A program made the translations under genes and the position numbers. From IMG/VR virus record IMGVR_UViG_3300032297_000073, positions 1 through 32,476 of that record: a stretch of 32,476 nt of DNA. One strand, 5' to 3'. Positions 6,580 to 29,782 of this stretch are shown piece after piece. This DNA is from a virus. The notes below the pieces were generated by a model. The model was not told the DNA's origin and did not search any database. It saw only the letters and a program-made list of their open reading frames with translations. Numbering within the stretch: position 1 is the stretch's first letter; every line of letters starts with the position of its first letter.

Positions 6580-6997
6580 TATTATCTCAGAAGTGCAGTA
6601 TCTGCTGGAACAGCACTATGAAGAATTAACACTGAACAAACATCAGATCAAACTAAAGCCCATTTGGGCACGTTACCTAGCACTGGAAGCAGAGGGCAAG
6701 TTCATAACAGTCACAGCCCGCATAGATGGAGAGCTTGTGGGCTATAGTGGATTCTTCCTTGATCAGCATATACACTATGAAGACCTGCGTGTAGCCACTA
6801 ACGATGTGCTATTCCTACGCAAGGATCTGCGTCAGGGTATGACAGGCATACGCCTTATCAAATACTCCGAGGGTACTATGCGTGACTTTGGGGCCAATAA
6901 GATCACATGGCATGTCAAGTATAAAAATGACATACGTCCTATTCTACACAGAATGGGCTACGTTGACGAAGATGTTATTGTGGGCAAGTTATTGTGA
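6545..6997 (+). CDS. GNAT-family N-acetyltransferase (150 aa)
   Basis: The 150-residue protein fits one GNAT domain. It has a central strand VGYSGFFLD, a strand DVLFLRKDLR followed by the acyl-CoA loop RQGMTG (about residues 97-102), helix IRLIKYSEGTMRDFG, strand KITWHV and a late helix RPILHRMGY. These enzymes move an acetyl group from acetyl-CoA to an amine. The start lies 35 nt inside the desaturase gene, so translation is probably coupled. The substrate is unknown; sugar amines or a protein amine are the obvious candidates. Confidence 0.75.
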   Translation: MALDLQTEPLADIISEVQYLLEQHYEELTLNKHQIKLKPIWARYLALEAEGKFITVTARIDGELVGYSGFFLDQHIHYEDLRVATNDVLFLRKDLRQGMTGIRLIKYSEGTMRDFGANKITWHVKYKNDIRPILHRMGYVDEDVIVGKLL

Positions 6998-11996: not shown

Positions 11997-12025
11997 CGCA
12001 TACTGTAGTATAATTACTGTATGCG
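11997..12025 (+). promoter_or_regulatory. Promoter-like TATAAT inside an inverted repeat at the start of 12021-13808
   Basis: CGCATAC (11997-12003) and GTATGCG (12019-12025) form a 7-bp inverted repeat that encloses TATAAT (12009-12014) and includes the ATG at 12021. TATAAT is 6 nt from the ATG and there is no SD, so leaderless initiation is likely. This would be the entry promoter of the glycan cassette. Confidence 0.5.
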
Positions 12026-13808
12026 TGATGTCTATAAAGTAGATCTAGAAGAAATCAAAAAAGTTAAATGGCAAGGTGATACCAATCAGTATGACCTTGA
12101 CCTACATGCGCTCGGCAAAGGTAGATCTGAGTTTATTATATTAAACCCAACAGTATCTAATCCTAACCTATATCATTGCATACATGAAATACCGGACACT
12201 GACAGATGCGTGTTTTGGTATCACGAAGGTGAATGGGTTGCCAAATATTTTAAAAAGAATTGGACTCCTAAGACAGGTTATAAAGAAATTGAAATAATTA
12301 AACCTGAGTTCGCTTGGAGAAAGAACCCTGACCTAGATCGAACAATGACATTCGAAGATGATCCGTTTGGTATCTTTGAACCAGAACCTTGGGACATGTA
12401 CTATGAATTGGTATGGTACATGGATCCTAGATTTAATCCACTGTACGATAAAGTGTGGGCTATCAGTTGTAAGCCTATAGGTGTTCCAACAATTGGTGTC
12501 AAGGATATGGGCTACGTCACTCCGCAGGTTGACATAGAATTCAACGAACACATTCCTAGTTTAGATATAAACATCGATGATTGCTATCCAGCCTATTATG
12601 ATTTGTTAAATGAATGTGCATGGGAATTAGATCCTGTACACCTAACAGAGAATGATGAACGTCTATGGGTAGTGAAGTTTACTCCGCGTTATCGTAAGCC
12701 TAAAGAATGGCAATGGTATGGAGTTATCAGCCCGGAGTTTATCATAGAACACAATCCGGTGCTCGGTGAATTAAACTACGATCTTGATCTGTTTATTCCT
12801 TGGTACAATTTAGGGTATGAGCATGTATGGATGTTAGATAATAAACATCTTGACAAGGGCGAAGAAGAGATATGGGCCTTTAAGATTAGAGTAACTGATA
12901 ATCTAGTAGGCAGCACAGTTATAGATTACATCAGTCCTGTATTAGAAGTTGAATACAATGAAGACCTTCCTAGTGTAGATTACAACATTGATTACAACAT
13001 ACCTTGGTATGATCTGTCTTATGAGCACACATGGTATCTAACAGAAGAGACTAAAGAAAAAGTTTGGGCAGTTAAACTCTGTGCAGTAGAAGAACCTACA
13101 GGTGAGAAGGACATGGGTAGTGTGTCCCTAATCATCCCTAGATTAGATGTTATATTCATTAGTTACAATGAACCTAATGCAGAAGCTAACTGGCAACGTG
13201 TCTTAGAGAAAGCTCCTTGGGCTAAACGAGTAAACGGTATTGAGGGTATCTTTAATGCACATAAGGCTGCCGCTAAGTTATCAAAAACAGATATGTTCTA
13301 TGTAGTGGACGGTGATGCATACCTAGCAGATGATTGGCAATTTGATTTTGAACCCAGTATCTTTGACAGAGACTGTGCCTATGTTTGGAGTAGCCGCAAT
13401 CCTATAAATGACCTAGTCTACGAAAATGGCGGAGTTAAATTATTTCCTAGATCCAAGTTATTAAAAACACGCAAATGGATCACTTTGGACATGTTTACTG
13501 GGACTGTGAAAAAAACTAAGTCACAGTCTCAGGTCAGTAACCTAACAGCATTTAACACAGACGAGTTTTCTGCATGGCGTAGTGCATTTAGAGAATGTGT
13601 TAAGTTATATACTATTAACCAAATGACTAAACTCAACGCATGGTTGACCCTAGGTGAAGACAGGCAATTTGGCAAATACGCATTGGAAGGTGCTAGTGCA
13701 GGTTATCAATATGCCAAAGACAACATAACCGATCAAACAGCGTTAGTTAAGATCAACGATTACAATTGGTTGCAAAACCAATTCAATTTATATTATAATA
13801 AACAATGA
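12021..13808 (+). CDS. Repeat-containing GT-A-type glycosyltransferase-like protein (595 aa)
   Basis: Residues about 55-375 contain five copies of a unit of about 69 residues, marked by Trp66, Trp132, Trp201, Trp270 and Trp338. Units carry ...W-x-x-D..., a second Trp (KVWAI, RLWVV, EIWAF, KVWAV) and a VEYNEDLPS-like end. Residues about 375-595 start with LDVIFISYNEPNAE and have FYVVDGDAYL with the DxD pair D430/D432, as in GT-A glycosyltransferases that bind a metal-nucleotide-sugar. The repeats may hold the acceptor or oligomerise. It heads the cassette and overlaps the radical SAM gene by 4 nt. Enzyme activity is likely but the sugar is unknown. Confidence 0.65.
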   Translation: MRDVYKVDLEEIKKVKWQGDTNQYDLDLHALGKGRSEFIILNPTVSNPNLYHCIHEIPDTDRCVFWYHEGEWVAKYFKKNWTPKTGYKEIEIIKPEFAWRKNPDLDRTMTFEDDPFGIFEPEPWDMYYELVWYMDPRFNPLYDKVWAISCKPIGVPTIGVKDMGYVTPQVDIEFNEHIPSLDINIDDCYPAYYDLLNECAWELDPVHLTENDERLWVVKFTPRYRKPKEWQWYGVISPEFIIEHNPVLGELNYDLDLFIPWYNLGYEHVWMLDNKHLDKGEEEIWAFKIRVTDNLVGSTVIDYISPVLEVEYNEDLPSVDYNIDYNIPWYDLSYEHTWYLTEETKEKVWAVKLCAVEEPTGEKDMGSVSLIIPRLDVIFISYNEPNAEANWQRVLEKAPWAKRVNGIEGIFNAHKAAAKLSKTDMFYVVDGDAYLADDWQFDFEPSIFDRDCAYVWSSRNPINDLVYENGGVKLFPRSKLLKTRKWITLDMFTGTVKKTKSQSQVSNLTAFNTDEFSAWRSAFRECVKLYTINQMTKLNAWLTLGEDRQFGKYALEGASAGYQYAKDNITDQTALVKINDYNWLQNQFNLYYNKQ

Positions 13809-15217
13809 GCTCTACAGATAAAATACGCAAGGTAATTGCAATCACTAATGAACTAAGTCCTACATTCTGTATGGCCAAATGGCACCACGCTTCTATATAT
13901 CTACACACAGGTCAGACACATAGTTGCTATCACCCGCCCCCACACGATATATCCTTAGACGAAATCAAAGAGAATCCAGCAGCCTTGCATAACACACTGC
14001 AAAAGAAAAAAGAACGTGCAGAGATGCTGATAGGTACACAACCTGCAGGCTGTAAGTATTGCTGGAACATCGAGAACATGGGTCCTGATTATGTTAGTGA
14101 CCGCCACATTAAAACATCTTCTATCTATACTCCAGAACGCATGGAAGAGATTGCTACAAGCACATGGGATGCAAACTACAATCCAGAATACATTGAAGTT
14201 GCCTTCTCCAATGAATGTAACTTTAAGTGTGGCTATTGCCATCCAATGTCCAGCTCTAGATTCCAAAGTGAGATCAAAGAGTTTGGTCCCTACAACATGG
14301 TTAAGAATCACACACTGAATATCGAATGGTTCAAACCCTTTGAAGAAGAAGTTAATCCCTATATTGACGCTTGGTGGAAGTGGTGGCCCGAGATGTCCAA
14401 GACGCTGAACATACTTCGTGTCACTGGCGGCGAACCTTTGATGCATCGTAGCACATGGCGCTTGTTTGAACATCTAATAAAAGAACCTAAACCACATTTA
14501 GAGTTAAACTTGAACAGTAATTTAGGTGTCAAGGCAGCAATGGTTGAACGATTAAGTGACGATGTAAATTTATTATTGCAGAACAATTCTATCAAAAGTT
14601 TTAAACTATTCTCAAGTATGGATAGTTGGGGTGCCCGTGCTGAGTATATGAGAACAGGGTTAGACTGTGAGCTATGGGAACGTAACTTTGATCACTTTGT
14701 TAGAACAACTCATTCTGAAATATCGATCATGTGTACCTTTAATATATTAAGTGTTACATCCTTTATCGATTTCTTAAAGAAAGTATTAGAGTGGCGTAAG
14801 AAGTATGATGACGTTATTACTATTAACCGAGATAATCTCTCCAAGTCTGACAGCTATAGAAAAGTAAGATTTGATACTCCTTATCTGAAAGAACCTCTTC
14901 AGTATGATATGCACATCTTGCCTAAGGTAGAGTTCCTGCCTTACTTCGATGCCATACTACAATTCATAGACGACAATAGAGATGACTCGGATGTTACTAA
15001 GTTCTCAGATATAGAATATGAAAAGTTCCGTAGGGTTAGAGATTACTATGCTACTACTCATTATCCTGAAGCCAGAATACTAGAAGGACAAAGAGATTTC
15101 TATCTTTGGTTCACTGAATATGATCGCAGGAGAGGTACAAACTTTCTAGCTACATTTCCGGAGATGGAAAAATTCTATAACAGATGTAAAGAGCAGGCAC
15201 AGGTAGTAAATGAATAA
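13805..15217 (+). CDS. N-terminal-twitch radical SAM protein (470 aa)
   Basis: The radical SAM motif CxxxCxxC is C138-C142-C145 (NECNFKCGYC), followed by the SAM-binding GGEP at 209-212. Cys22, Cys41, Cys83 and Cys86 upstream (FCMAKW, HSCYHPP, GCKYCW) fit an auxiliary Fe-S site in an N-terminal twitch domain. Family members use SAM-derived radicals to modify peptides, sugars or nucleotides; the substrate of this group is unknown to me. A close relative is encoded at 26807-28387. It overlaps the preceding gene by 4 nt (ATGA) and the next by 8 nt, with no clear SD, indicating coupled translation. Confidence 0.85.
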   Translation: MSSTDKIRKVIAITNELSPTFCMAKWHHASIYLHTGQTHSCYHPPPHDISLDEIKENPAALHNTLQKKKERAEMLIGTQPAGCKYCWNIENMGPDYVSDRHIKTSSIYTPERMEEIATSTWDANYNPEYIEVAFSNECNFKCGYCHPMSSSRFQSEIKEFGPYNMVKNHTLNIEWFKPFEEEVNPYIDAWWKWWPEMSKTLNILRVTGGEPLMHRSTWRLFEHLIKEPKPHLELNLNSNLGVKAAMVERLSDDVNLLLQNNSIKSFKLFSSMDSWGARAEYMRTGLDCELWERNFDHFVRTTHSEISIMCTFNILSVTSFIDFLKKVLEWRKKYDDVITINRDNLSKSDSYRKVRFDTPYLKEPLQYDMHILPKVEFLPYFDAILQFIDDNRDDSDVTKFSDIEYEKFRRVRDYYATTHYPEARILEGQRDFYLWFTEYDRRRGTNFLATFPEMEKFYNRCKEQAQVVNE

Positions 15218-16556
15218 CATAACCCTTAGATACGAAAAGTTTGAGTTTGATCATGCCTTGTCTCCGCAAGAAGTTCTGTATGTAAACTATAGTAAGTTAG
15301 GAAATCTAGAAGGTATAGATCATCACAGATTTAGGTTCTCGCAGGTTGTTGATAGTATGTTATATTATTATCAACATGTTAAGAACACAGAAGAAGCTAT
15401 TAACATAGAATCAATCGATAGCACTAGCGGCAACAATTATATTATTCCTATTGCGGTAGCCTACAATCCCAATGATTGGACGGATACTCCCAATGGTGTA
15501 CACAATCCTAGTCAGTTATCAGTATTTGAATACTTAAATCCAACGTATATCAAAGACATGCAGGACAAACGAGCCTTGCTTATGTTAGATCAAAGTGTTG
15601 AAGGATATCACAGCCCGTGGTTATGGCAGTGGTTCCATAATAAGTGTCGGCAGTACAATGTACAGCCTGCTTCGATTATATACCTAACAGGAGATCAATC
15701 ATCTGCAGACAGCTACGAGCAATGGTGCATTGAAAACAATCCTAGTTCTAGATTGAAAGTGATCCCTTCTACCTCGTTGGGCATGTACGTTCATAAACAA
15801 TTCCGTAGAGATTTTGCAGACATTAAATTTGATCTACTATTAGAACATAAGAAGTCGAATTACAATGACATCTATTTGTATGATTGTATTAACATGCGAC
15901 CACGCCCCCAACGAGTGTTGAACCTATTGCATTTGTTCAATGCAGGACTGCTAGAGCAGGGTAAAATTACCATGGGTAAAAATGAAGGGTGGCATACTAT
16001 GCCATCTCCTCAATACTTGGCAACATACAACCTACCAACTAATGTAATGCTAAAGGTAAACGAAACTGGTGCATTTGATAAAATACCTGAGCCCACATCT
16101 GTGTCTAACAAAGATAATCATTATTACAACTTTGTTGAAAGAATCTTATATGACATGTATAAGAACAGCTGGGTTTCAATCATTGCCGAAACATCGTATT
16201 TTGAACATGAACATGCAACATTCATCAGTGAAAAGACATTCAAACCGCTGGCATCAATGCAACCATTTGTAATTATTGGAACACGTGGAACACTGAAGTA
16301 TCTACGTAAGTTAGGATATAGAACATTCCATCCGTACATAGATGAATCATATGATGATCTACCTGACAGTGATAGATTTGTTGCAATCGTTGAATCTATT
16401 AAAAAGATACAGGCAATTGAAAATAAAGTAGAATGGTACGAGTCGATAAGGGATATCGTTGAACATAACTACAATCTGTTTGCGTCAACTGATACAAGAA
16501 AATCGCAAGAACACGAAGCTATCATTAAATACTACTTTAATTATTTCAAGGAATAA
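15210..16556 (+). CDS. GT10-like (GT-B) putative glycosyltransferase, paralogue 1 (448 aa)
   Basis: The C-terminal third carries SIIAETSYF...TFISEKTFKPL...PFVIIGTRGTLKYLRKLGYRTF...DESYD. This resembles the fucosyltransferase (GT10) pattern of an Asn/Glu-containing strand, then (T/S)EK and a donor-site helix. The N-terminal part is unassigned. The proteins at 19056-20375 and 22287-23459 share the same C-terminal block, so this is a three-member family in one cassette. The likely role is transfer of a nucleotide-activated sugar; the fold is assigned by motif only. It is followed within one base by an SGNH hydrolase gene. Confidence 0.55.
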   Translation: MNNITLRYEKFEFDHALSPQEVLYVNYSKLGNLEGIDHHRFRFSQVVDSMLYYYQHVKNTEEAINIESIDSTSGNNYIIPIAVAYNPNDWTDTPNGVHNPSQLSVFEYLNPTYIKDMQDKRALLMLDQSVEGYHSPWLWQWFHNKCRQYNVQPASIIYLTGDQSSADSYEQWCIENNPSSRLKVIPSTSLGMYVHKQFRRDFADIKFDLLLEHKKSNYNDIYLYDCINMRPRPQRVLNLLHLFNAGLLEQGKITMGKNEGWHTMPSPQYLATYNLPTNVMLKVNETGAFDKIPEPTSVSNKDNHYYNFVERILYDMYKNSWVSIIAETSYFEHEHATFISEKTFKPLASMQPFVIIGTRGTLKYLRKLGYRTFHPYIDESYDDLPDSDRFVAIVESIKKIQAIENKVEWYESIRDIVEHNYNLFASTDTRKSQEHEAIIKYYFNYFKE

Positions 16557-16557
16557 A

Positions 16558-17427
16558 ATGTATATCACACACTGTGACAGAATTGTTGAAGGCGATAATG
16601 TTATCGTAGGACTTGGAGATAGCTTTACCCAAGGTGTTGGTGCATACTCTTTGGACACATGGAAGTCAATCCCCAGTAATCCCTCTATGTACAATGTATC
16701 GGGACAACACTTTATAGAAGAACAAGGAAATAATAATTGGGTAAGACAGATATGTAAAAGTTTTTTACCAAATTATAAAACATTTAGCCTTGGAGTAAAT
16801 GGTGCAGGTAATCGTGCCGCAGTTAAAGAATTGTATCTTAATCCTTTGCCCAAAAATCTAGGCAATGTTGTTGTAGTATTAATGGCCACAGGTATGGAAC
16901 GATTTGATCTGTTCAAACAAAGCGATGCTACAGCAGGCATAAACTGGCATCAGAAATGGCAGACTATTTGGCCTACTGTCACTGATCGCGGACCTATATC
17001 TGCATTGGAAAAACAATATAAAGAACAAATCTGGTCTCCGAGGAATGATGCATTAGAGTTTTTGTTAAATGTTCGTGATGCACAGAATTTCTGCAGAGCA
17101 AATGGATATAAGTTTCTCTTTGGATCAGCCTTTGATTCTCAAATTTCTAGAAAAAATTTATTGAGAGACCTAGGCGACAAATCAAAGTACATAGATGTAG
17201 CAGATTGGACTGAATTCATTGATATCCCTGAAAGAGATTCTTTTATGGATATGATTAATCAATTAGATGGTAATAAGTACAGATCTATGCACAGTATATT
17301 TCAAGCAAACGCTTCTGCTACATTACCGTCTAAGTACATAACACCCTGTAGTCATTGGACAATTGAAGGACAGATAAAAGTTGCTGAATATTTGTTTAAT
17401 GAAATGACCCTACGAAAAATGGTGTAA
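16558..17427 (+). CDS. SGNH/GDSL-type hydrolase, paralogue 1 (289 aa)
   Basis: Block I is GLGDSFTQG with Ser22 as nucleophile. Block II/III is LGVNGAGNRAAVKEL with the oxyanion Gly and Asn84. The catalytic His is probably His266 in PCSHWTIEGQ. Known members are esterases or carbohydrate O-acyl hydrolases and transferases. The ATG at 16558 is chosen over an upstream Met because it follows AAGGA and begins one base after the preceding stop. A second SGNH protein lies at 23459-24490, again directly behind a GT10-like gene. Likely acts on acyl groups of the sugar product. Confidence 0.75.
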   Translation: MYITHCDRIVEGDNVIVGLGDSFTQGVGAYSLDTWKSIPSNPSMYNVSGQHFIEEQGNNNWVRQICKSFLPNYKTFSLGVNGAGNRAAVKELYLNPLPKNLGNVVVVLMATGMERFDLFKQSDATAGINWHQKWQTIWPTVTDRGPISALEKQYKEQIWSPRNDALEFLLNVRDAQNFCRANGYKFLFGSAFDSQISRKNLLRDLGDKSKYIDVADWTEFIDIPERDSFMDMINQLDGNKYRSMHSIFQANASATLPSKYITPCSHWTIEGQIKVAEYLFNEMTLRKMV

Positions 17428-17432
17428 ATACA

Positions 17433-17450
17433 ATAGACCGGCCGGTCTAT
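17433..17450. promoter_or_regulatory. Perfect 18-bp palindrome upstream of 17465-18136
   Basis: ATAGACCGGCCGGTCTAT is a perfect palindrome with a GC-only core, set in AT-rich DNA between the stop at 17427 and AAGGAAA ahead of the ATG at 17465. It is the only gap of more than a few bases inside the cassette. A dimeric protein-binding site, a methylation/restriction site, or an RNA hairpin that separates messages are all possible. Confidence 0.6.
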
Positions 17451-17464
17451 ATAAGGAAAATAAC

Positions 17465-18136
17465 ATGACGACACAACCGCATTTAGTTTTACATTGGACA
17501 TTTGATATTCCAAACAACAAACTATTCATAAGAATTGCAGACGATCTAGAATATGAAGCTCACGAAGGTGGCTCATTGGGTTATACTAAGATTTATCAAG
17601 GAGTAACATCACATGTTAGTCCAGAACAATGGACACAAACAGAAAAGTATTGGATCAGCGAAAACTATGGGGAAACCTGGGGTTATTATCAACCTGACCA
17701 CGATAGAATGAAACCACATCCTATATTTGGGTGGGATCAAAAATGTTTTGATGGTCTTGGACCAGATGGTGAATACATTGATCACATGCAACGAATGCAA
17801 ATTGTAATGGAAGGCAATGATATGGCAGTTGTTTGGCAAGGAGCAGATCGAATAATGTATTCTACTCCTAACCGGGGACTGACTATCTATAAACGAACTC
17901 CAACTAGAGATGTGCTGTATCCTGCAGAGATGATGGTAGATGAAACAGCATATTGGACTGATCATCCTCAAGCCTGTATAATGCAGCCTCGTACTAAAGG
18001 TTATCAATTGAGTAATTATGCAGAAATGCTAGCTTCTGGAGCACCTCAGGCTATAATTGATCAATGCACTGCTGGCGAATGGGATGCGCCACTTAATCCT
18101 GAACTGCAACAATATTACATTTACCCAACAAGCTGA
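17465..18136 (+). CDS. Hypothetical protein in glycan cassette (223 aa)
   Basis: A 223-residue soluble protein rich in Trp, Tyr, His and Met, with segments such as EQWTQTEKYWISENYGETWGYY; no family recognised. It starts after AAGGAAA and just downstream of the palindrome, and ends 2 nt before the epimerase gene. The aromatic-rich composition might suit carbohydrate binding, but I see no catalytic signature. Confidence 0.75.
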   Translation: MTTQPHLVLHWTFDIPNNKLFIRIADDLEYEAHEGGSLGYTKIYQGVTSHVSPEQWTQTEKYWISENYGETWGYYQPDHDRMKPHPIFGWDQKCFDGLGPDGEYIDHMQRMQIVMEGNDMAVVWQGADRIMYSTPNRGLTIYKRTPTRDVLYPAEMMVDETAYWTDHPQACIMQPRTKGYQLSNYAEMLASGAPQAIIDQCTAGEWDAPLNPELQQYYIYPTS

Positions 18137-18138
18137 AT

Positions 18139-19059
18139 ATGAAAATTTTTATAACTGGAAGCTCTGGATTTATAGGAAGTCACATTCTTCCAGTTCTAGA
18201 AAAAGATTATACAGTTCACCGTATGCAATCTGATCTATTAAATTTTGAAGGAGTTAAAAAAGAACTCAGTCAATTTGGACCAGATTTGATTGTACACCTT
18301 GCTGCTCGTACTGAAGTTGAAAAGAGCTTCTACGAACAGATAACATTCAGTGAAGTTAACTACGTAGGAACAGTTAACCTAATTGAAGCGGCCAGTAAGT
18401 TAGATAAGAAGCCAGTATTCTTATTTGCATCTACTATGGAAGTATATGGCTGGCAACCTGTCAGTGATCAAATACAACAGGGCAATATCCCAGTTTACAT
18501 TCCTGTATTTGACGAGCATACGACTCCGAATCCAAATGCTCCCTATGCTGTGGCCAAATTTGGTTGTGAGAAATATTTGGAATATGCTAGCAGAGCCTAT
18601 GGTCTTGAGTATATAATAATAAGACAGACTAACAGTTATGGTAGGAAAGACAATGATTTCTTTGTGACAGAACAGATCATTAGTCAAATGTTGTCCAATG
18701 CCGAGGAATGTAATCTTGGCTATGGAGAGCCTTTTAGAAACTTCATATACATTGATGATTTAATCGATGCTTGGATAGCTGTAATACATAACAAAGACAA
18801 ATGTGCGAATAATATCTTTACCATTGGTCCTAACTATCCTGTGCAGATTAAAGAACACGCAAACAACATTGCTAAGTTATTAAATTGGCAAGGTAAGATC
18901 AATTGGAATACCAAGCCTAAACGCCACGGTGAGATCTATCTGCTAAACAGCGGTAATGAAAAGCTCACTGCAATGATAGGTTGGGAACCTAAGGTTGATT
19001 ATTGGACAGGACTAAAACAGACTGTTGATTTTTGGAAACATAAACTCGGTGATGCATGA
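18139..19059 (+). CDS. NAD-dependent epimerase/dehydratase, extended SDR (306 aa)
   Basis: Typical extended SDR of sugar-nucleotide metabolism: nucleotide-binding GSSGFIG (7-13), HLAARTEV around 53-60, Ser98-Thr99 in FASTMEVYG and the YxxxK pair Tyr136/Lys140, plus RNFIYIDDLIDAW near 205. Family members epimerise, dehydrate or reduce NDP-hexoses (GalE, RmlB-like). Length is normal, so the enzyme is probably active. It overlaps the next gene by 4 nt. With the UDP-sugar dehydrogenase at 24487 it points to synthesis of a nucleotide sugar in the infected cell; the exact sugar cannot be read from sequence. Confidence 0.9.
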   Translation: MKIFITGSSGFIGSHILPVLEKDYTVHRMQSDLLNFEGVKKELSQFGPDLIVHLAARTEVEKSFYEQITFSEVNYVGTVNLIEAASKLDKKPVFLFASTMEVYGWQPVSDQIQQGNIPVYIPVFDEHTTPNPNAPYAVAKFGCEKYLEYASRAYGLEYIIIRQTNSYGRKDNDFFVTEQIISQMLSNAEECNLGYGEPFRNFIYIDDLIDAWIAVIHNKDKCANNIFTIGPNYPVQIKEHANNIAKLLNWQGKINWNTKPKRHGEIYLLNSGNEKLTAMIGWEPKVDYWTGLKQTVDFWKHKLGDA

Positions 19060-20375
19060 CAAAAACTATAACATTGCTAGACAATGCGGAAATTACTAAT
19101 TGGAATGTAGACACCTCTGTACTGGATACGAGTAAATTTTGGGTACCATCTAACTCAGTATTGATTCCTGAGTTTGTTTTTATAACTAATGACTATGTCA
19201 AACAACAGGGCATAGAGTACAAAATTTCTAAATTTGAAGACATTGATAAATCAAAATCTTGGTTAGTATTTCTATCTATTAATTTTCCTATCAGTGTAAA
19301 TTTTAATGACAAACCTTTACTAGCAAGTAAACAGTTATTCCAAGGCATACCGGATAACATTATTAATGAACTAGTAAACGGCAACGCATACTTAATCATT
19401 TCTTTCGAACAAGAGTCTTATACTAAACAGTTTCTTGATTTGTTTTATGCATTGTATAGAAACAATCCTATAGTCCCTGCAAACAAACTTATTCATATAA
19501 CCGTAGCACAGAACATACACGGGATATATGACGAATACTGCTTAGTAAACAATATCCCAAACACAGAAAGAATACAAATATGGTTTAGTCCTCATTCATT
19601 GTTAGGACCAATACAGTATCATTCTAAATTCTATTCTCCTACATCTATCAATAAAGAAAAGAAATTCTTAAACTTTAATAGAGCACCTAGGTCTCATAGG
19701 ATACTTGCCACAAGCCTGCTGGCAGCATATGATCTATTGGATAACGGATATGTCAGTTTGGGTATCTTGGAGTACAGCAGATTCCAAGATCGCAATAACA
19801 TATTAGAATACGTGCAGAACGATCTTCCTCGTGTCTATGATTTAAATGATGAAGTACAGTCTCTATTGCTGTCTGGAATTAATAAGTTGTTAGATTCATT
19901 GCCTCTGACTATTGATACAGATGAATTTGCCTACGGTCCAACATTTGGATATAGTGGAGACCTAATGAGTTTCTATGATAAAAGCTACTTCAGTGTTGTT
20001 AGCAATACACACTTCTTTGCAGTAGACGAACCTGCAATAACATTAAACGAAAAAGAATACAAACCTATCCTAGCTAGACATCCTTTTATTTTAATAGCAA
20101 GTCCGGGTACGCTTGCATTATTAAAAACTCTAGGATTTAAAACATTTGACCAATGGTTTGATGAAAGCTATGACGCTGAAAAAGATGACTCAGCCCGCAT
20201 GTTAAAGATCATTAAAGAGATCGATAGGCTTTGTAAAATAGATAATGCTACCTGGGATATCATGATTGCTGAGATGGCACCCATACTCGAGCATAATTAT
20301 AATTGGATAGTAAATCATACCAATGATATTATCTTTAGCACAGACTTTAAACACATTTTAGAATACGCAGAATGA
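19056..20375 (+). CDS. GT10-like putative glycosyltransferase, paralogue 2 (439 aa)
   Basis: A second member of the family, with SYFSVVSNTHFF...ITLNEKEYKPILARHPFILIASPGTLALLKTLGFKTF...DESYD at the C-terminus and FLNFNRAPRSHRILA near residue 205. Here the conserved EKTFK block reads EKEYK. Both flanking genes overlap it by 4 nt. Like its paralogues it is probably a GT-B sugar transferase; differences in the N-terminal halves suggest different acceptors. No membrane segment is seen, so it should act in the cytoplasm. Confidence 0.55.
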   Translation: MTKTITLLDNAEITNWNVDTSVLDTSKFWVPSNSVLIPEFVFITNDYVKQQGIEYKISKFEDIDKSKSWLVFLSINFPISVNFNDKPLLASKQLFQGIPDNIINELVNGNAYLIISFEQESYTKQFLDLFYALYRNNPIVPANKLIHITVAQNIHGIYDEYCLVNNIPNTERIQIWFSPHSLLGPIQYHSKFYSPTSINKEKKFLNFNRAPRSHRILATSLLAAYDLLDNGYVSLGILEYSRFQDRNNILEYVQNDLPRVYDLNDEVQSLLLSGINKLLDSLPLTIDTDEFAYGPTFGYSGDLMSFYDKSYFSVVSNTHFFAVDEPAITLNEKEYKPILARHPFILIASPGTLALLKTLGFKTFDQWFDESYDAEKDDSARMLKIIKEIDRLCKIDNATWDIMIAEMAPILEHNYNWIVNHTNDIIFSTDFKHILEYAE

Positions 20376-22324: not shown

Positions 22325-23459
22325 GACCTACGATATTAATAATCCTCAGGTTAGGAAATTTCATTTAACACAACCAACTTCTGGATTATCGGCATTGTAC
22401 GATTCCTCTCTGATTGACAAAAATGTCTGGTACTGTATGTTTACCACAGAGAACAGTTTTAAGGTTGTTGATATCAAAGAGTTAATGGGCGAAGATGTAT
22501 TCAACGCAGTTATAAACAAAACAGCAAGTATTGTACTCGATATTCCATTTGAGCCTTTCTTAAGAGCAATTGATGCAGTCTATGAAGATATTGTAATAAA
22601 ACTAGGTGTACCATCATCTCAGGTTATATTTTCATCTAATATGTATGATGCAAAAGAATACAATGATCGTGTTTCTGCACAACTCGGCCTACCACCTATT
22701 AGAATAGTTTATTTTTCAGCATTAGAGTGGATGCTGAACAAATATCGAGGTCCGATACCTAATACACTGACATTAAAACAATACGATAAAAAGTTCTTAA
22801 ACTTAAACAGGCGCTGGAGGACTCATCGTCCGTTGTTAGTATTATTGATGTATCATCAAAAGTTATTAGACAAGGGATTTGTCAGTTTTGGTCCAGCTGA
22901 TGAAGAATACTACAACACATGGGAACGCATATGGGGTGGTTTAAAATGTACAACTTGGCAAAACAGAAAAGTTTTTAACGCTGTTATAGAAAGCGAAAGT
23001 ATTAAAGACATGCCATCTCTATATTTAGATACCGATGAGTTGCGTACTAATAGAGCAGAGTTAACGGACTCAACAAATAGATATTATGAAGATAGTTATT
23101 TTAGTGTAATTTCTGAGACAACATTTTATTCTGATGATGTAACTCAAAACTCTAGATTTATAACTGAAAAAACTTTTAAAGCGATTATGATGAAACATCC
23201 GTTTATCATTGTATCATTACCGAGAAGTTTAGAAGTATTAAAAGATCTAGGATATAAAACATTCTCTCCTTGGATCAATGAATCGTACGATCAAGAAAAA
23301 AATGATCTAGAGAGAATGTTAATGATTGTTGACGAAATTAAAAGGCTATCAAATTTACCTGCTGATGAGTTAGAAGCATTTCTGATTGCGGCAAAGGAAA
23401 TTTGTAACTATAATTACAACATACTTAAGAACAGAACAAAATTTATATATGAGCAATAA
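22287..23459 (+). CDS. GT10-like putative glycosyltransferase, paralogue 3 (390 aa)
   Basis: The third family member: FLNLNRRWRTHRPLL near residue 170, then SYFSVISETTF...RFITEKTFKAIMMKHPFIIVSLPRSLEVLKDLGYKTF...NESYD. It keeps the TEKTFK block. The ATG lies 38 nt inside the radical SAM gene, and its stop shares one base with the ATG of the SGNH gene (TAATG). The order radical SAM, GT10-like, SGNH repeats the order at 13805-17427. The probable role is sugar transfer in the cytoplasm. Confidence 0.55.
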   Translation: MIEVLNKQIPLIETYDINNPQVRKFHLTQPTSGLSALYDSSLIDKNVWYCMFTTENSFKVVDIKELMGEDVFNAVINKTASIVLDIPFEPFLRAIDAVYEDIVIKLGVPSSQVIFSSNMYDAKEYNDRVSAQLGLPPIRIVYFSALEWMLNKYRGPIPNTLTLKQYDKKFLNLNRRWRTHRPLLVLLMYHQKLLDKGFVSFGPADEEYYNTWERIWGGLKCTTWQNRKVFNAVIESESIKDMPSLYLDTDELRTNRAELTDSTNRYYEDSYFSVISETTFYSDDVTQNSRFITEKTFKAIMMKHPFIIVSLPRSLEVLKDLGYKTFSPWINESYDQEKNDLERMLMIVDEIKRLSNLPADELEAFLIAAKEICNYNYNILKNRTKFIYEQ

Positions 23460-24490
23460 TGTTTAAATCTCAGATAGCACAAATTAATAAAGACATAACA
23501 CGAACTAAGCGAGCAATAATTGCACTTGGGTGTTCGTTTGTGCAAGGTAGCGGAGCATTTGACACAGATATCTATAAAAATTATAAATGGAATCCTTTGG
23601 CAGAGGGACAGGAACACATTCAATGGGAGTTAACTAACACTGATAAACAACGATTAATTTCTCAGTATCCCGATGTTAACATTAATAACGACGGACAACC
23701 TAATCTATCCTTACATCAGTACAACAATGCATTTGCAAATGTATTATCTCAGAAATATTTTAATGGGGACTATGCTGTTATTAATTTGGGTATTGCAGGC
23801 TGCGGCAACCGTGCTACAATTAAAGAATTACATTACTATCCGGATATTCTTTGGAACGAAATAGAAGAACATATCGTTATATTTTGCCCTAGTGGAGCAG
23901 AAAGGTTGGATTTTATTTCTGATGAGTATCATGATCCTAACCATCATAACAGGTGGAAAGCTATATGGCCAAGAGAATTGAATGAAGTTAGTTCGAGAGC
24001 AGATTTATGGCGCGGTTATGCCAACCACATATACAGTGAGAAATTTCAAACACTAGAGCAGATTGCAATCATACAAGAATTATTATTGTGGTGTAAGTAT
24101 AAAAAAGCTCGACTTATAATTACTCCTGCATTTTCTTCTGTATATAATAAAGATAATTTTAAAAATAATCTACAAAGACTAGTTACACGGAACCATATAG
24201 GAGATCTAATATCTTTTAGTGAGAGTTTTCACAAGAAGGATCAGACTGTTGTTGATATGCTCGATATGTGGCCGTGGGAAAATATGTTTATACCAGATGA
24301 ATGCCCGTCGTTTATGGACCTCACTATGAAACAAGAGTTTGGCAATAAATGGGAAAACAATCATTTTTATTCTTTCGTAGGCTCAGGAAGTCCAGGAGGA
24401 TGGGTTACTCCTTGTGCTCATCCTAGTGCAAAAGCACATGACGTATTTGCACAACATTTATACAAACATATTACAGAGAACAAAAAATGA
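23459..24490 (+). CDS. SGNH-type hydrolase, paralogue 2 (343 aa)
   Basis: Block I reads ALGCSFVQGSGA, with Cys25 in place of Asp before the nucleophile Ser26. LGIAGCGNRATIKEL gives the oxyanion Gly/Asn, and PCAHPSAKAHD near residue 320 holds the likely catalytic His. Alignable blocks (NR-A-x-KEL, ERLD/ERFD, KW/RWKAIWP) show it is a paralogue of the protein at 16558-17427, with a longer middle. Predicted to remove or transfer an acyl group on a glycan. GCSF instead of GDSF is a tolerated family variant rather than a sign of inactivity. Confidence 0.7.
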   Translation: MFKSQIAQINKDITRTKRAIIALGCSFVQGSGAFDTDIYKNYKWNPLAEGQEHIQWELTNTDKQRLISQYPDVNINNDGQPNLSLHQYNNAFANVLSQKYFNGDYAVINLGIAGCGNRATIKELHYYPDILWNEIEEHIVIFCPSGAERLDFISDEYHDPNHHNRWKAIWPRELNEVSSRADLWRGYANHIYSEKFQTLEQIAIIQELLLWCKYKKARLIITPAFSSVYNKDNFKNNLQRLVTRNHIGDLISFSESFHKKDQTVVDMLDMWPWENMFIPDECPSFMDLTMKQEFGNKWENNHFYSFVGSGSPGGWVTPCAHPSAKAHDVFAQHLYKHITENKK

Positions 24491-25707
24491 AAATAGGATT
24501 TATTGGATTAGGCAAGCTAGGACTTCCTTGTGCCGAGGCTATTGCTATTAAAGGACATGATGTTTCAGGCTATGATATTGCCGCAGTAGAATCTACATTA
24601 GTATCAGTTAAATTATCGATTAAAGAAGTTGTACAAGACAGGGATATTGTATTCATTGCTGTACCAACTCCGCACGATCCTGCCTATGATGGTAGAGCTC
24701 CTACAGCACATCTTTCTCCAAAAGATTTTAACTACGATATAGTAAAACAATGCGTAACTGAAGCTAATCTACATATGAATAAGGATCAGCTACTGGTGCT
24801 CATTTCAACAGTACTACCCGGCACCACACGTAAAGAGTTTGTGCCTTTGGTAACTAATACAAGATTTGTTTACAATCCTTATTTGATTGCCATGGGTAGT
24901 GTAGCATGGGATATGGTCAATCCAGAAATGGTTATGATTGGCACAGAAGACGGATCTACTACAGGTGATGCAGAACAGTTGGTAAATTTCTATAAGACTA
25001 TTATGGAGAATAATCCTCGATATGAAATTGGTACATGGGATGAATGTGAATGTATTAAAGTATTCTACAATACCTTTATTAGTGCTAAGATTGGACTGGT
25101 TAATATGATACAAGATGTTGCAGTTCGTCAGGGCAATATCAATGTTGATGTAGTAACTAATGCATTGGCTAAATCTACTATGCGTATCATGGGCCCGCAG
25201 TACATGAAGGCAGGTATGGGTGATGCAGGTGCATGTCATCCTCGAGATAATATTGCATTAAGATATCTTGCTGAAAACTTAGACCTTGGCTATGACTTGT
25301 TTGATTCTATTATGAATGCCCGAGAGATACAGGCAGAGAATCTAGCTAATGAATTAGTTAAACATGCCAAAGAAAATAAAATGAATATCTTTATACACGG
25401 CAAAGCCTACAAACCTAATGTGTCTTACTGTGACGGCAGCTATAGTTTATTAGTTGGGCACTACTGTAAGATTCAAGGATACAAACCAATCTATATTGAT
25501 CCATTAACTGGCAACGACCTCGATCAGTGCTATGGGGTTGTTCTGTTGGCTCATAGTGCTAAAACTACATATCAATATATTGACGAATATGAAGATAAAT
25601 TATACTGTGATATCTTACCGGGAAGTGTGGTAGTAGATCCTTGGAGAGCATATATAAATGATAAAGTTAAAGTAATACACTACGGAAACACTAGGAATTT
25701 AAAATGA
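24487..25707 (+). CDS. UDP-glucose/GDP-mannose dehydrogenase family enzyme (406 aa)
   Basis: NAD-binding GLGKLG lies at 7-12. The central domain has CIKVFYNTFISAKIGL (Lys191, Asn195), and the catalytic-cysteine motif is GDAGACHPRDN with Cys250, matching the G-x-G-x-C-x-P-K/R-D signature. GKAYKPN near residue 305 starts the C-terminal UDP-binding domain. These enzymes oxidise C6 of UDP-hexoses to uronic acids in two NAD-dependent steps. Full domain set and key residues suggest activity, though it is far from the best-known UGDHs and its sugar is uncertain. 4-nt overlaps at both ends. Confidence 0.85.
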   Translation: MKIGFIGLGKLGLPCAEAIAIKGHDVSGYDIAAVESTLVSVKLSIKEVVQDRDIVFIAVPTPHDPAYDGRAPTAHLSPKDFNYDIVKQCVTEANLHMNKDQLLVLISTVLPGTTRKEFVPLVTNTRFVYNPYLIAMGSVAWDMVNPEMVMIGTEDGSTTGDAEQLVNFYKTIMENNPRYEIGTWDECECIKVFYNTFISAKIGLVNMIQDVAVRQGNINVDVVTNALAKSTMRIMGPQYMKAGMGDAGACHPRDNIALRYLAENLDLGYDLFDSIMNAREIQAENLANELVKHAKENKMNIFIHGKAYKPNVSYCDGSYSLLVGHYCKIQGYKPIYIDPLTGNDLDQCYGVVLLAHSAKTTYQYIDEYEDKLYCDILPGSVVVDPWRAYINDKVKVIHYGNTRNLK

Positions 25708-26810
25708 CAATGTGGACCTATGAATCACTGTCTGCCGTACATTTAGAATTGTCCTCTAAATGTAATGCTGCCTGTCCTGGATGTATGCGCTTTGTAAGTA
25801 ATAGTCCCATAATCAATCCTGACCTAGTACAAGAAGAAGTTACTTATGACATGTTTGTAAAATGGTTTCCTAAAGAAATTGTATCTAAGATTTATAATTG
25901 GATTTTATGCGGCAACTATGGTGATCCACTAACCTGTAAAGATTTATACAAGATATTAGAATACATCTGTGAGTATAGTCCCGGTAATATACAAATTAAT
26001 ACCAATGCTGGACTACGTTCTCCTGATTTGTACAGACGTATAGGAGAGTTATTCAATCAACGAACAGAACACGAAGGTAAAGTTCCTAATCGTGTAATAG
26101 CATTTAGTATAGACGGTTTAGAAGACACAAATCACATCTATAGAAGAAATGTACGTTGGGAAAGAGTTTGGGACAACTTAATGGCTTATGTAGATACTGG
26201 TGCTAGTGCTCATTGGGATTTTTTGCAATTTAAACACAATGTCCACCAAATTGAAGAAGCAAGAAAACTTGCTGGACAATATGGGATTAGTTTTGTATTA
26301 AAAAATCCTTTTGGAGTACATCAGACTGCAATGCCTGTGTATAATAAAGAGTTAAAATTGGACTATGTTATTGAACACGCGGTATATTACGGATACCCTG
26401 CATACACACCTGCTCCAGCAGACTACGAAGCTCCGATGCCTGTGCCAGTTGTTGCAGAAGGTTGTATCAACTGTTTGGCGAAACGTAAAGCTCCTGCTCC
26501 TTATCTAGCCAAAGAAATTATTGATATTTTTGTAAATCCTGTAGGCCAAGTATTACCTTGTTGTTTTGTTGGCAATAGGATGAGTACCAAGCACATGCCT
26601 GATGCAGTACAGGTTAGATCAATACAGGCAGAAATGGGAACTGCTAATAATCTTAATCATTATAGTCTTCAAGAAATCTTAGATAATAAAGTTTTAGATG
26701 TATGGTCTGACTCTTGGGAAAACAAATCCATATCAACTTGCTGGCAACAATGTGGTTCAAGTGATAATAAAAAACGTGCCATAGACATTTTATTCAAGGA
26801 TGCAGATTGA
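25704..26810 (+). CDS. Radical SAM protein with SPASM domain (368 aa)
   Basis: The N-terminal cluster is C20-C24-C27 (SKCNAACPGC). The barrel has QINTNAG and IAFSIDGLEDTNHIYRRN. The C-terminal Cys set C254/C257, C286/C287 and C346/C350 (GCINC, LPCCF, CWQQC) fits a SPASM auxiliary-cluster domain. SPASM enzymes modify peptides (for example sactipeptide or PqqE-type) and some sugars or aminoglycosides. With the twitch proteins it makes this one of four radical SAM enzymes in the cassette. 4-nt overlap on both sides. Confidence 0.88.
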   Translation: MTMWTYESLSAVHLELSSKCNAACPGCMRFVSNSPIINPDLVQEEVTYDMFVKWFPKEIVSKIYNWILCGNYGDPLTCKDLYKILEYICEYSPGNIQINTNAGLRSPDLYRRIGELFNQRTEHEGKVPNRVIAFSIDGLEDTNHIYRRNVRWERVWDNLMAYVDTGASAHWDFLQFKHNVHQIEEARKLAGQYGISFVLKNPFGVHQTAMPVYNKELKLDYVIEHAVYYGYPAYTPAPADYEAPMPVPVVAEGCINCLAKRKAPAPYLAKEIIDIFVNPVGQVLPCCFVGNRMSTKHMPDAVQVRSIQAEMGTANNLNHYSLQEILDNKVLDVWSDSWENKSISTCWQQCGSSDNKKRAIDILFKDAD

Positions 26811-28387
26811 GTAATTATAATAAGTCTGCTGATCTAGCAGAACATCAATTAAAATTTATGAGCAAGACAATGTGCTATGCTAAATGGGCACAGGTGTCTA
26901 TGCATCTTACCAATGGTATGACACATAGTTGTTATCATCCACCTTTACATAAAATAGATGTAAAAGAGATCGCTGTCAATCCTAGTGCGCTACATAACAC
27001 CAAAGAGAAGAAAGCTGAACGTGCGCTGATGCTAAAAGGTGAACGCCCTGCAGGCTGTAATTACTGTTGGAAGATTGAGGATGCCGGGTCTCGCAGTGAT
27101 CGAATCTATCGTAGTGGCGAGGATTGGGCACAGAACGCTAGGAAAGATATTATCTCTGTATTAGACACAGGCGATATCGAACCTCGTTATATGGAAGTTA
27201 ACTTTAATCAAGCCTGCAACTTTAAATGTATGTACTGTAGTCCTCACCTAAGTACTACATGGGAAGAAGAAATAAACGAATATGGTCCGTATAATATCAT
27301 AGGCAAAGAGGGCGAGGAAACTAAACACAACGACGTAGAGTATCTTGCCAAAGACGGACTGATGCCACTTAAGATATCAAACAAGAACAATCCCTACGTT
27401 GAAGCATTCTGGCGCTGGTGGCCTACACTTTACAAGAAACTTGAAATGTTCCGCATTACAGGTGGCGAGCCATTGATGGATGCAAATACATTTAAGGTAT
27501 TAGATTACATCTATGAGCATCCTAATTCGTGGCTTGAAGTTAGTGTGACTACAAATTTATGCCCTCCTAAACCCGAACTGATGGATAAGTTTGTGGATAA
27601 GCTAAAGAAACTAGAAGAAATACAGATATGGAAGGACGAAGAACGTTTTAATCCAGGGTCAGGCAATAATTGGTATGTTAATATGGCATTAAAGAATGTT
27701 GCTATATTTGTCAGCTTAGACAGCGTAGGTGAACAGGCCGAATATATTAGAACAGGTTTGGATTTTGAAACACTGAACAACAATGTTAGAGTCTTGTTAA
27801 GCGAAACCAATAATACCACAGTTACATTTATCAATACCTTTAATGCCCTAAGTGTTACTGGATTCAAAGACTATCTAAAGTTTATATTAGAACTACGTAG
27901 AGAGTACAGTATGGATAATCAAGGTACTAAACATATTCCTGTACATTGTCAAGGAATGAACCATCCTGACTTTGTTGTTAGACCCAGACAGCGTATATGG
28001 TTTGACATTCCTTTGTTGCGTAATCCAGCATGGCAGGCTATGCAAATCCTACCAGAATCATTTGATCACTATTTAGAAGAAGCTATTGATTTTATGAAAG
28101 AGAATTCGGATGTAGGCAACTATGTAGGATTCTATGATTTTGAAATTGAAAAAGCAGAACGTAATCTACGCATACTAAAAGATAGAGCAGATCTCGATGA
28201 AGAAGTATTGAAACGAAACCTTGAAAACTTTTTTAATTACTTTGATCAACATGATGAACGTAGAGGAACTGATCTATTGAAAACGTTTCCTGAATTTAGA
28301 AAACTTGCGGTTAGAAATATTAAACCTATTCCAAAAGTTAAGTTTGTTCCAAAAAAGAAAAAACTCAGTGTATTTGATTTAAGATAA
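26807..28387 (+). CDS. N-terminal-twitch radical SAM protein, paralogue of 13805-15217 (526 aa)
   Basis: C137-C141-C144 (ACNFKCMYC) is the radical SAM cluster; Cys23, Cys42, Cys84 and Cys87 (MCYAKW, HSCYHPP, GCNYCW) are the putative N-terminal twitch ligands. RITGGEPLMD follows. It matches the protein at 13805 along its length, with insertions after the first cluster region. The C-terminus is Lys-rich. Translation probably starts at TTG 26807, which overlaps the stop of the SPASM gene (TTGA) and has AAGGA 8 nt upstream; the Met at residue 18 would lie very close to the first Cys. Confidence 0.83.
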   Translation: MSNYNKSADLAEHQLKFMSKTMCYAKWAQVSMHLTNGMTHSCYHPPLHKIDVKEIAVNPSALHNTKEKKAERALMLKGERPAGCNYCWKIEDAGSRSDRIYRSGEDWAQNARKDIISVLDTGDIEPRYMEVNFNQACNFKCMYCSPHLSTTWEEEINEYGPYNIIGKEGEETKHNDVEYLAKDGLMPLKISNKNNPYVEAFWRWWPTLYKKLEMFRITGGEPLMDANTFKVLDYIYEHPNSWLEVSVTTNLCPPKPELMDKFVDKLKKLEEIQIWKDEERFNPGSGNNWYVNMALKNVAIFVSLDSVGEQAEYIRTGLDFETLNNNVRVLLSETNNTTVTFINTFNALSVTGFKDYLKFILELRREYSMDNQGTKHIPVHCQGMNHPDFVVRPRQRIWFDIPLLRNPAWQAMQILPESFDHYLEEAIDFMKENSDVGNYVGFYDFEIEKAERNLRILKDRADLDEEVLKRNLENFFNYFDQHDERRGTDLLKTFPEFRKLAVRNIKPIPKVKFVPKKKKLSVFDLR

Positions 28388-28390
28388 ACA

Positions 28391-29146
28391 ATGATGAAAA
28401 TAGTATTAGTAACAGGTGGGTTCGATCCCTTGCATAGCGGGCATATCGCTTATTTTAAAAACGCACGTGAGTTAGGTGACAAGCTAATTGTAGGAATCAA
28501 TTCTGATGATTGGCTAGCACGTAAAAAAGGACAGCCCTTTATGCCTTGGGAGGAACGTGCGACCATTGTTGCTGCCTTACATGATGTAGATAGAGTTATT
28601 AACTTTAACGATGACGATAACTCTGCCAAGGATGCTATTCGTAAAGCTAGAGAAATATTTCCTAATCACCAAATTGTGTTTGCCAATGGTGGGGATAGGA
28701 CCAAAGACAACATTCCCGAAATGGAATTACTCAACAAATACTTAAACTTAAAATTTGTATTTGGAGTAGGGGGTGAGGATAAAATAAACTCTAGTAGCTG
28801 GATCTTGCAAGAATGGAAGGCTCCTAAGACTGAGCGGCCCTGGGGATACTATCGTATTTTACATAATCCAAATAAAAATATTAAAGTTAAAGAATTAACA
28901 GTAGATCCGGGCAAACGTCTTACAATGCAACGCCATCAAAATAGAGCAGAGTTTTGGTTTGTAGCAGAAGGCACAGCCACAGTTAAATGGGATGAACATG
29001 GACATACTACTACCAAAGTTTATCAAACAGAAAAAATACATCAAAACGAATGGCACCAGCTAATTAATGATACTGCTGATCCTTTAAAGATTATTGAAAT
29101 ACAATACGGAACTAGTTGTGATGAGTCAGACATTGAACGTAGATAA
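28391..29146 (+). CDS. Nucleotidyltransferase-cupin fusion (251 aa)
   Basis: Residues about 1-135 are a cytidylyltransferase-like domain: GGFDPLHSGH with the HxGH catalytic motif at 15-18, then VGINSDDWLARKKG and a late INSSSWIL like the ISS/T motif. Residues about 148-245 are a cupin like the C-terminal mannose-6-phosphate isomerase domain of ManC (RPWGYYRIL, GKRLTMQRHQNRAEFWFVAEG, ...EWHQLIN). A nucleotide-sugar activation step plus a sugar-phosphate isomerase-like step in one chain is unusual. Possible products are an NDP-heptose or CDP-polyol type precursor; not determinable here. Confidence 0.8.
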   Translation: MMKIVLVTGGFDPLHSGHIAYFKNARELGDKLIVGINSDDWLARKKGQPFMPWEERATIVAALHDVDRVINFNDDDNSAKDAIRKAREIFPNHQIVFANGGDRTKDNIPEMELLNKYLNLKFVFGVGGEDKINSSSWILQEWKAPKTERPWGYYRILHNPNKNIKVKELTVDPGKRLTMQRHQNRAEFWFVAEGTATVKWDEHGHTTTKVYQTEKIHQNEWHQLINDTADPLKIIEIQYGTSCDESDIERR

Positions 29147-29684
29147 AGATGCATTCAGCAGCGGGCAAATTGGCAGCAAACTTTGGCTCTGCGAAGAACT
29201 GGAAAAATTATATAGTAAGATAGATCTCTTAGCTATCTACGGAGGTTGGTACGGAACTACTGCATTTATGCTCAAAGTTAGAGATAATATCGAAATATCT
29301 AGAATTGTTAGCTTAGATATCAACCCAGCTTGCCAGCCTGTAGCGGACATGATTAACGAGTATTGGGTATGGCAAGACTGGACATTCAAAGCGCATACAG
29401 AAGATTGTAACAAAGCGATTACCTCCCTAAGACAACCTGATGTCATTATTAACACAAGTACTGAGCATTTTGAAAACCGTGATTGGTGGGACTTTATTCC
29501 TCGAGGCACCGTAGTAGTTCTACAGGGCAACAATATGCCACATGATGATCACTATATTACTACTAACTCTGCTAGAGAATTTGCTGAACAGTTTCCAGTA
29601 ACCGAACGTCTATATTTAGGAGAACGTGAGTTTGTCTATCCAAATTGGCAGTTTACTAGATATATGCTAATCGGCATAAAATAA
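29121..29684 (+). CDS. Probable class I SAM-dependent methyltransferase (187 aa)
   Basis: LLAIYGGWYGTTAFML near residue 37 fits motif I of Rossmann methyltransferases; ISRIVSLDINPACQPVAD is strand 2 with the acidic ribose-binding residue; VIINTSTEHF looks like motif IV; a late VVVLQGNN strand follows. The glycine loop is GGWYG, less typical than E/DxGxGxG, so confidence is moderate. The ATG at 29121 lies 26 nt inside the preceding gene; an upstream Met at 29094 would deepen the overlap and is less likely. Last gene of the cassette; probably methylates the glycan or its carrier. Confidence 0.65.
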   Translation: MSQTLNVDKDAFSSGQIGSKLWLCEELEKLYSKIDLLAIYGGWYGTTAFMLKVRDNIEISRIVSLDINPACQPVADMINEYWVWQDWTFKAHTEDCNKAITSLRQPDVIINTSTEHFENRDWWDFIPRGTVVVLQGNNMPHDDHYITTNSAREFAEQFPVTERLYLGEREFVYPNWQFTRYMLIGIK

Positions 29685-29687
29685 CCC

Positions 29688-29734
29688 GGTTTTACCAAAA
29701 ACCTCTTGACTTTCCCCTCTTTTAGTGCTATACT
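29688..29734 (+). promoter_or_regulatory. Sigma70 promoter with GGTTTTACCAA upstream, for the lysis genes
   Basis: TTGACT (29706-29711), 17-bp spacer, TATACT (29729-29734). GGTTTTACCAA (29688-29698), the operator-like motif of the leftward promoters, here sits 7 bp before the -35 instead of in the spacer. The palindromic GGT...ACC core allows either reading. Confidence 0.8.
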
Positions 29735-29782
29735 AGCGTATAGTTGATAACTATTTTACCACTAACGAAAAAGGAGGTCTAT

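Follow-up and report, generated by a model that had tools for sequence, protein, structure and literature searches.

A probable tail-linked module of glycosyltransferase and radical SAM genes in uncultivated T4-like aquatic phages

Genes of the cassette

The virus record IMGVR_UViG_3300032297_000073 (32,476 bases, analyzed over its whole length and referred to as the window) carries at 12021-29684 a cassette of 15 open reading frames (ORFs), all on the plus strand, in which sugar-nucleotide and glycosyltransferase genes stand among four genes for radical S-adenosylmethionine (SAM) enzymes (Table 1). An earlier note made from the sequence alone had proposed a phage cassette combining these three classes; the phage origin holds, and family searches support the combination. 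The tight plus-strand run that the note described is also correct, but its count of 14 genes is not, as the ORF at 17465-18136 had been missed. Most of the ORFs overlap by 1 to 38 nt or are spaced by 3 nt or less. The claimed maximum overlap of 38 nt therefore stands, whereas the claim of near-zero gaps fails at one gap of 37 nt within the run and another of 45 nt ahead of it. Two gene starts were also revised: the start of the fourth gene at 16459 is a TTG extension, with a likelier ATG at 16555 that overlaps the preceding stop, and the start of the last gene at 29094 is a TTG extension of a likelier ATG at 29121.

The radical SAM proteins fall into the three proposed subtypes: two are N-twitch proteins, one is of the cobalamin methylase type, and one is of the SPASM type. 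Both B and M pass the NCBIfam model NF033640 (N_Twi_rSAM; cut-off, 170) with 296.9 and 312.5 bits, respectively. The N-twitch proteins contain the CxxxCxxC motif and an N-terminal set of cysteines for an auxiliary cluster. C137/C141/C144, C23, C42, C84, and C87 are invariant in an alignment of 13 M-type sequences, and the core motif with C23, C84, and C87 is invariant among 39 diverse N-twitch sequences. H exceeds the Pfam cut-offs for B12-binding (PF02310, 36.0 bits; cut-off, 32.1) and Radical_SAM (PF04055, 40.4 bits; cut-off, 29.5), and its best relatives among PDB sequences are TokK (8.7e-80 over ~460 residues) and CysS (1.2e-50). Because H scores 259.1 bits against the KedN5 family NF033712, under the curated cut-off of 700, the case for its functional likeness is made through TokK and CysS. 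This similarity suggests a cobalamin radical SAM C-methylase-like enzyme, predicted to methylate an unactivated carbon. The TokK, CysS, and KedN5 methylases act in antibiotic biosynthesis, whereas H belongs to a phage cassette and resembles them by sequence. L itself falls under the Pfam cut-offs (26.9 and 16.7 bits), and its homologue in locus L057 passes SPASM (26 bits; cut-off, 21.5).

Structure prediction agrees with the description of A as a GT-A protein with repeats. The model, reliable only from about residue 373 onward, places a GT-A domain at approximately residues 373 to 513, and the fold matches of this domain include B4GALNT1 (Z 11.5), the peptide S-glycosyltransferase ThuS (Z 10.2), and an enzyme of PBCV-1 capsid glycosylation. 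For the three proteins called GT10-like (C, G, and I), the predicted structure of I, standing for the family, is a GT-B fold, but the GT10 label lacks a sequence-level match: no GT10 Pfam model was matched at E 0.05, and no match was found among PDB sequences either. The nearest chain to I is T4 beta-glucosyltransferase (Z 11.2), which leads exostosins, fucosyltransferase, and trehalose phosphate synthases by just 1.3 to 2.1 Z; a GT10 fucosyltransferase scores Z 9.1. Judged by the model of I, the family has the GT-B fold in common with T4 beta-glucosyltransferase and GT10 fucosyltransferases but no sequence-level match to them. PDB sequence searches with the GT-A, GT10-like, and SGNH profiles returned nothing useful. 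Both SGNH assignments (D and J) are supported, by the DUF6071 match of D and by an alignment in which the GxS, G, N, and H residues are kept. Family searches likewise confirmed the SDR epimerase (F), the sugar dehydrogenase (K), and the nucleotidyltransferase-cupin (N). The methyltransferase label given to 29121-29684 is unconfirmed because neither O nor its relatives has a Pfam match.

Table 1. Features of the cassette and adjoining genes in the window
Positions	Strand	Gene	Feature	Basis or remark
12021-13808	+	A	GT-A-fold domain C-terminal to N-terminal repeats	best module marker
13805-15217	+	B	N-twitch radical SAM, directly 3' of GT-A	NF033640
15210-16556	+	C	GT-B-fold glycosyltransferase-like ("GT10-like" family)	alignment; fold taken from the model of I
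16555-17427	+	D	SGNH-like / DUF6071	Pfam 34.4 bits, cut-off 27
17465-18136	+	E	223 aa, no family	same-length homologues in L134, L147
18139-19059	+	F	extended SDR, NDP-sugar 4-epimerase/4,6-dehydratase type	4zrm, 5.4e-30
19056-20375	+	G	second GT-B-type "GT10-like" protein	alignment
20372-22324	+	H	cobalamin-dependent radical SAM, C-methylase-like (KedN5/TokK/CysS kind)	
22287-23459	+	I	third GT-B-type protein	predicted structure
23459-24490	+	J	second SGNH-like protein	alignment
24487-25707	+	K	UDP-glucose/GDP-mannose dehydrogenase family	phrog_9148, 2.1e-94
25704-26810	+	L	radical SAM, C-terminal SPASM-like domain	
26807-28387	+	M	N-twitch radical SAM	NF033640; 65-82% identity over many contigs
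28391-29146	+	N	nucleotidyltransferase (HldE C-domain-like) fused to mannose-isomerase-type cupin	
29121-29684	+	O	small protein, no Pfam family	conserved in 43 loci
7564-8337	-		conserved neighbor, GT9-type-like start (GLGDIVIALPIA), family unconfirmed	no Pfam family
8537-9307	-		second neighbor of same look (GAFGDLIYSLPI), family unconfirmed	homologue in L080
9396-11975	+		putative tail/virion protein, candidate acceptor, directly upstream of cassette	24.4% Ser+Thr
29744-30358	+		cell-wall hydrolase, outside cassette, boundary	own sigma-70-like promoter 29706-29734

Distribution and linkage to tail genes

A search of gene neighborhoods in other phage contigs recovered homologous sets far beyond chance, and sequence comparison indicates that the cassette is a recurring module of uncultivated T4-like aquatic phages, of which the window carries one version. 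A scan of IMG/VR anchored on M found 190 relatives, and the 80 loci kept contain GT-A in 53, GT10-like genes in 47, SGNH genes in ~44, and O in 43, counts that, like those below, take in near-identical contigs of different assemblies and so overstate independence. No relative of M was found in 50,697 phage records, searches with M or with GT-A did not find the cassette in isolates, and J used as a search anchor found nothing. Because all of these 80 loci had been found through M, a second scan took as its query the GT-A protein of a 256-kb relative, so that the choice of loci did not depend on radical SAM genes; at least 600 matches were listed, and 80 loci were analyzed. Among the matches listed, an N-twitch gene is present in 76/80 loci, directly 3' of GT-A in 69, and the loci with enough flank contain the TF12 tail-protein family no more than six genes upstream in 67/70 and c11 and transferase-like c4 genes in 70/70. 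When the cobalamin radical SAM gene served as the anchor, 61 of 80 loci had GT10-like genes nearby, 47 had N-twitch genes, and 41 had the dehydrogenase. In G004 (256 kb), one unbroken run leads from three fiber genes through TF12, GT-A, and N-twitch and GT10-like genes to ~14 radical SAM genes. Another group of loci has no GT10 genes and carries 7 to 9 N-twitch genes of different subfamilies in near-fixed order behind GT-A.

The link between cassette and virion genes, first drawn from the window, is borne out by the TF12 counts. Genes that precede TF12 upstream of the module match tail-fiber and tail-collar PHROGs, and relatives of c19, a neighbor of those genes, occur in T4-like jumbo isolates. 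One of these is Serratia phage BF, whose annotation calls the gene behind c19 a "structural protein," and BLAST ties that family to the fiber-like proteins found here. The combined serine and threonine content is 27.5% for TF12 and 24.4% for the window protein at 9396, compared with 12.2% for all proteins; fiber homologues average 19.3% in uncultivated contigs versus 14.2 to 17.4% in six isolates. Relatives of the 9396-11975 protein occur in few contigs only, and elsewhere other Ser/Thr-rich tail proteins fill the same place. The T4 major capsid family, gp23, is encoded by 13 of the 16 large cassette-bearing records. It is not found in the window, a fragment of 32,476 bases, which we placed in the T4-like group because of its gene content and its synteny with L002, L015, and L134. 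In a 250-kb relative, an ORF of 5,388 aa (L125:2836-18999) lies upstream of the tail genes.

Partial versions occur in isolates. In Atu_ph07 (Agrobacterium) and Phosso (Sinorhizobium), the c19/fiber genes are immediately followed by a cupin gene and multiple radical SAM genes, with no recognized transferases at that site; the regions L131:21424-29073 and L130:20653-28802 in these two phages hold a cupin/JmjC-like gene and the radical SAM genes amid virion-like genes. A study of Atu_ph07 places its structural cluster, determined by mass spectrometry, at coding sequences 170 to 215 (PMC6102473). In Vibrio phages K566 and K567, remote N-twitch genes (three in K566, ~25% identity) lie beside two transferase-like genes.

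The close cellular relatives of M, found with the M-type alignment, are nearly all from metagenome-assembled genomes (MAGs) of Bdellovibrionota, where the N-twitch gene is usually alone amid housekeeping genes (for example, rplU-rpmA-obgE) and sometimes part of an array; 20 of 78 Bdellovibrionota genomes and 0 of 14 controls were positive. The subfamily order 1-2-3-9-14 of the L083 array is also that of phages L052, L055, L056, and L063. Such bacterial arrays (L083:3104-15100; L116; L120) often adjoin a nucleotidyltransferase-looking protein of ~318 aa with no Pfam family. The cassette has look-alikes on a few contigs (L103 and L113) that were assigned to bacterial bins but may be viral themselves. 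Both families are rare among proteobacterial genomes: in the phylum of a Pelagibacterales MAG (G020), N-twitch genes occur in 2/298 other genomes and the GT10-like family in 1/298, which argues that the cassette is not a freshly acquired host O-antigen locus. A hydropathy count over the 80 related loci and the window found no flippase-like membrane protein among cassette proteins: of 1,284 proteins of at least 150 aa, nine contain at least two hydrophobic segments, and all nine lie outside the cassettes. The earlier note's statement that flippase and polymerase are missing agrees with this count, and a constant pairing with host O-antigen transport genes was not seen.

Several other features of the window were recorded. 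A TATAAT at 12006-12020 lies ~13 nt 5' of the first cassette ATG, and a transcript from there would be nearly leaderless; a strong sigma-70-like promoter (TTGACT-17-TATACT, 29706-29734) before the cell-wall hydrolase marks the end of the cassette. The T4 late-promoter motif TATAAATA shows no enrichment across related loci (plus strand, 96; minus strand, 20; expected, ~148 per strand). A perfect 18-bp palindrome, ATAGACCGGCCGGTCTAT, occupies 17433-17450 within the 37-nt gap preceding gene E. The sole other copy found is in one viral contig (L133/L134), in which gene H is identical to that of the window, and no further copy was found among the related loci examined. The homologue of 7564-8337 in L080 adjoins a GT-A and N-twitch array; a heptosyltransferase (GT9) identity considered for the genes at 7564 and 8537 was set aside without Pfam support. 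Genes for a fatty-acid desaturase-like protein (5848-6579) and a GNAT acetyltransferase (6545-6997) lie beside structural-looking genes, and PMC7029224 reports a stearoyl-CoA desaturase in fonsimyophages. A tRNA-Met gene is located at 2783-2860 on the minus strand.

Possible functions of the module

We favor, with confidence that is about evenly balanced, the explanation that the module glycosylates the phage's own tail fibers with radical-tailored sugars. It builds on what was observed: the families and the order of their genes, a coupling to tail genes that is conserved, and the lack of export machinery. Nucleotide sugars would be made in the cytoplasm by the dehydrogenase K, the epimerase/dehydratase F, and the nucleotidyltransferase-cupin N, and the GT-A and GT-B-type proteins would place the glycan on the Ser/Thr-rich tail-fiber/adhesin proteins encoded just upstream. 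Before or after transfer, B and M (N-twitch), L (SPASM), and H (cobalamin methylase) could oxidize, rearrange, or C-methylate the sugars, and the SGNH proteins may add or remove acyl groups. Such decoration might change how a tail fiber binds its receptor, how stable it is, or how host defenses recognize it. Somewhat more tentatively, we propose that radical-tailored glycans on tail fibers are widespread, with the GT-A/N-twitch pair as the core, up to ~14 variable radical SAM enzymes diversifying adhesin-surface chemistry, and related chromosomal arrays of the same subfamilies in predatory Bdellovibrionota. Several points weigh against tail-fiber glycosylation. We infer the glycan and its acceptor from the genes alone, and likewise the order of steps and the benefit; fiber proteins are rich in serine and threonine in any case; in Atu_ph07 and Phosso, the corresponding site holds radical SAM genes but no recognized transferases; and E, O, and c4 are without a confirmed family. 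The region behind the tail fibers is also read as a hotspot for host-acting genes (PMC7029224), so position alone leaves the target unfixed.

The main rival is modification of the host surface, in which the enzymes remodel host lipopolysaccharide (LPS) or O-chain sugars, or supply a sugar that host transferases and a flippase display, blocking superinfection. This is possible but rather unlikely in our judgment. Glycosyltransferases, UDP-glucose dehydrogenase, and rfaE in the pelagimyophage host-recognition cluster are read in this way in PMC7029224, and an HldE-like nucleotidyltransferase with an NDP-sugar dehydrogenase is typical of O-antigen enzymes. However, no flippase-, polymerase-, or ligase-like membrane protein was found in ~80 loci, the rarity of GT10-like and N-twitch genes in same-phylum genomes argues that these are not ordinary host surface genes, and tight linkage to tail genes is not predicted. 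Ranked second is direct peptide modification, by which the radical SAM enzymes would act on virion side chains and the sugar genes would form an addition that is partly independent; we regard it as improbable. Radical SAM action on peptide side chains occurs in ribosomal peptide maturation, and such a role would fit Atu_ph07 and Phosso, where a cupin/JmjC-type protein and at least three radical SAM genes lie amid virion-like genes with no recognized transferase, and also the relatives in which 7 to 9 N-twitch genes are accompanied just by GT-A and a pair of small transferase-like genes. When the N-twitch core was compared with PDB sequences, SkfB and 8vpo, the latter an entry that a paper on peptide-recognition elements cites, matched best and point the same way, although the N-terminal cluster region is also similar to BtrN, an enzyme with an aminocyclitol substrate. 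Moreover, family searches of B and M reported no peptide-recognition domain, the GT-A/N-twitch pairing is nearly invariant, radical SAM and sugar genes are interleaved in the window, and GT10-like genes lie near the KedN5-like gene in 61/80 loci.

Two further products are far less probable than either of these. A soluble small molecule or signal, such as a glycosylated natural product made during infection, is suggested by the antibiotic pathways that the TokK, CysS, and KedN5 relatives serve, but no carrier protein, ligase scaffold, or export gene was seen in the window cassette, and transferases and tail genes predominate; we consider it very unlikely. DNA, which the earlier note had named as a possible target, is the least probable. 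T-even-style transfer of sugars onto phage DNA bases would agree with T4 beta-glucosyltransferase as the nearest fold match of I, but its margin over other GT-B folds is small, and the target is disfavored because the thymidylate synthase/dCMP-hydroxymethylase family was found in just 6 of 16 related records and is absent from 10. Those 10 include three (236, 257, and 330 kb) of the four largest cassette-bearing records in the search.

Related systems and implications

In chlorovirus PBCV-1 and in mycobacteriophages, capsid proteins are glycosylated by virus-encoded cytoplasmic transferases and sugar-nucleotide enzymes. The GT-A domain described here resembles a PBCV-1 enzyme, but the acceptor in those viruses is the capsid, whereas a tail fiber is the putative acceptor here. 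To our knowledge, no radical SAM enzymes take part in those systems, and we know of none acting in phage virion modification. An O-antigen or capsule locus would be expected to contain a flippase and polymerase or an ABC exporter, unlike the cassettes by hydropathy. The relatives do match the T4-like host-recognition cluster, with gp23 in 13/16 records and tail genes upstream.

Similar gene content in T4-like phages is already published (PMC7029224, PMC5332604). The pelagimyophage host-recognition cluster (Zaragoza-Solas 2020, PMC7029224) is likewise T4-like and hypervariable, with tail fibers, glycosyltransferases, UDP-glucose dehydrogenase, rfaE-like genes, and radical SAM cassettes. Its genes are read as host O-chain modification, however, and the accessible text describes neither the GT-A/N-twitch pair nor a cobalamin methylase; its freshwater genomes have no LPS or radical SAM genes. 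A T4-like marine viral genome also holds many such genes, 12 in all (Nishimura 2017, PMC5332604), but the accessible part of that paper discusses them as iron-sulfur metabolism, with no link to tail fibers or glycan genes. A limited literature search found no paper on the conserved fiber-glycosyltransferase-N-twitch unit, the arrays, or the phage cobalamin methylase, which appear undescribed.

Because Vibrio phages K566 and K567, Atu_ph07, and Phosso, which appear undescribed in this connection, carry partial versions, the system can be checked in isolates. If tail fibers do receive radical-tailored glycans, a large uncharacterized N-twitch radical SAM family would gain a testable substrate class, and the receptor binding of very common uncultivated T4-like phages would not be predictable by protein sequence alone.

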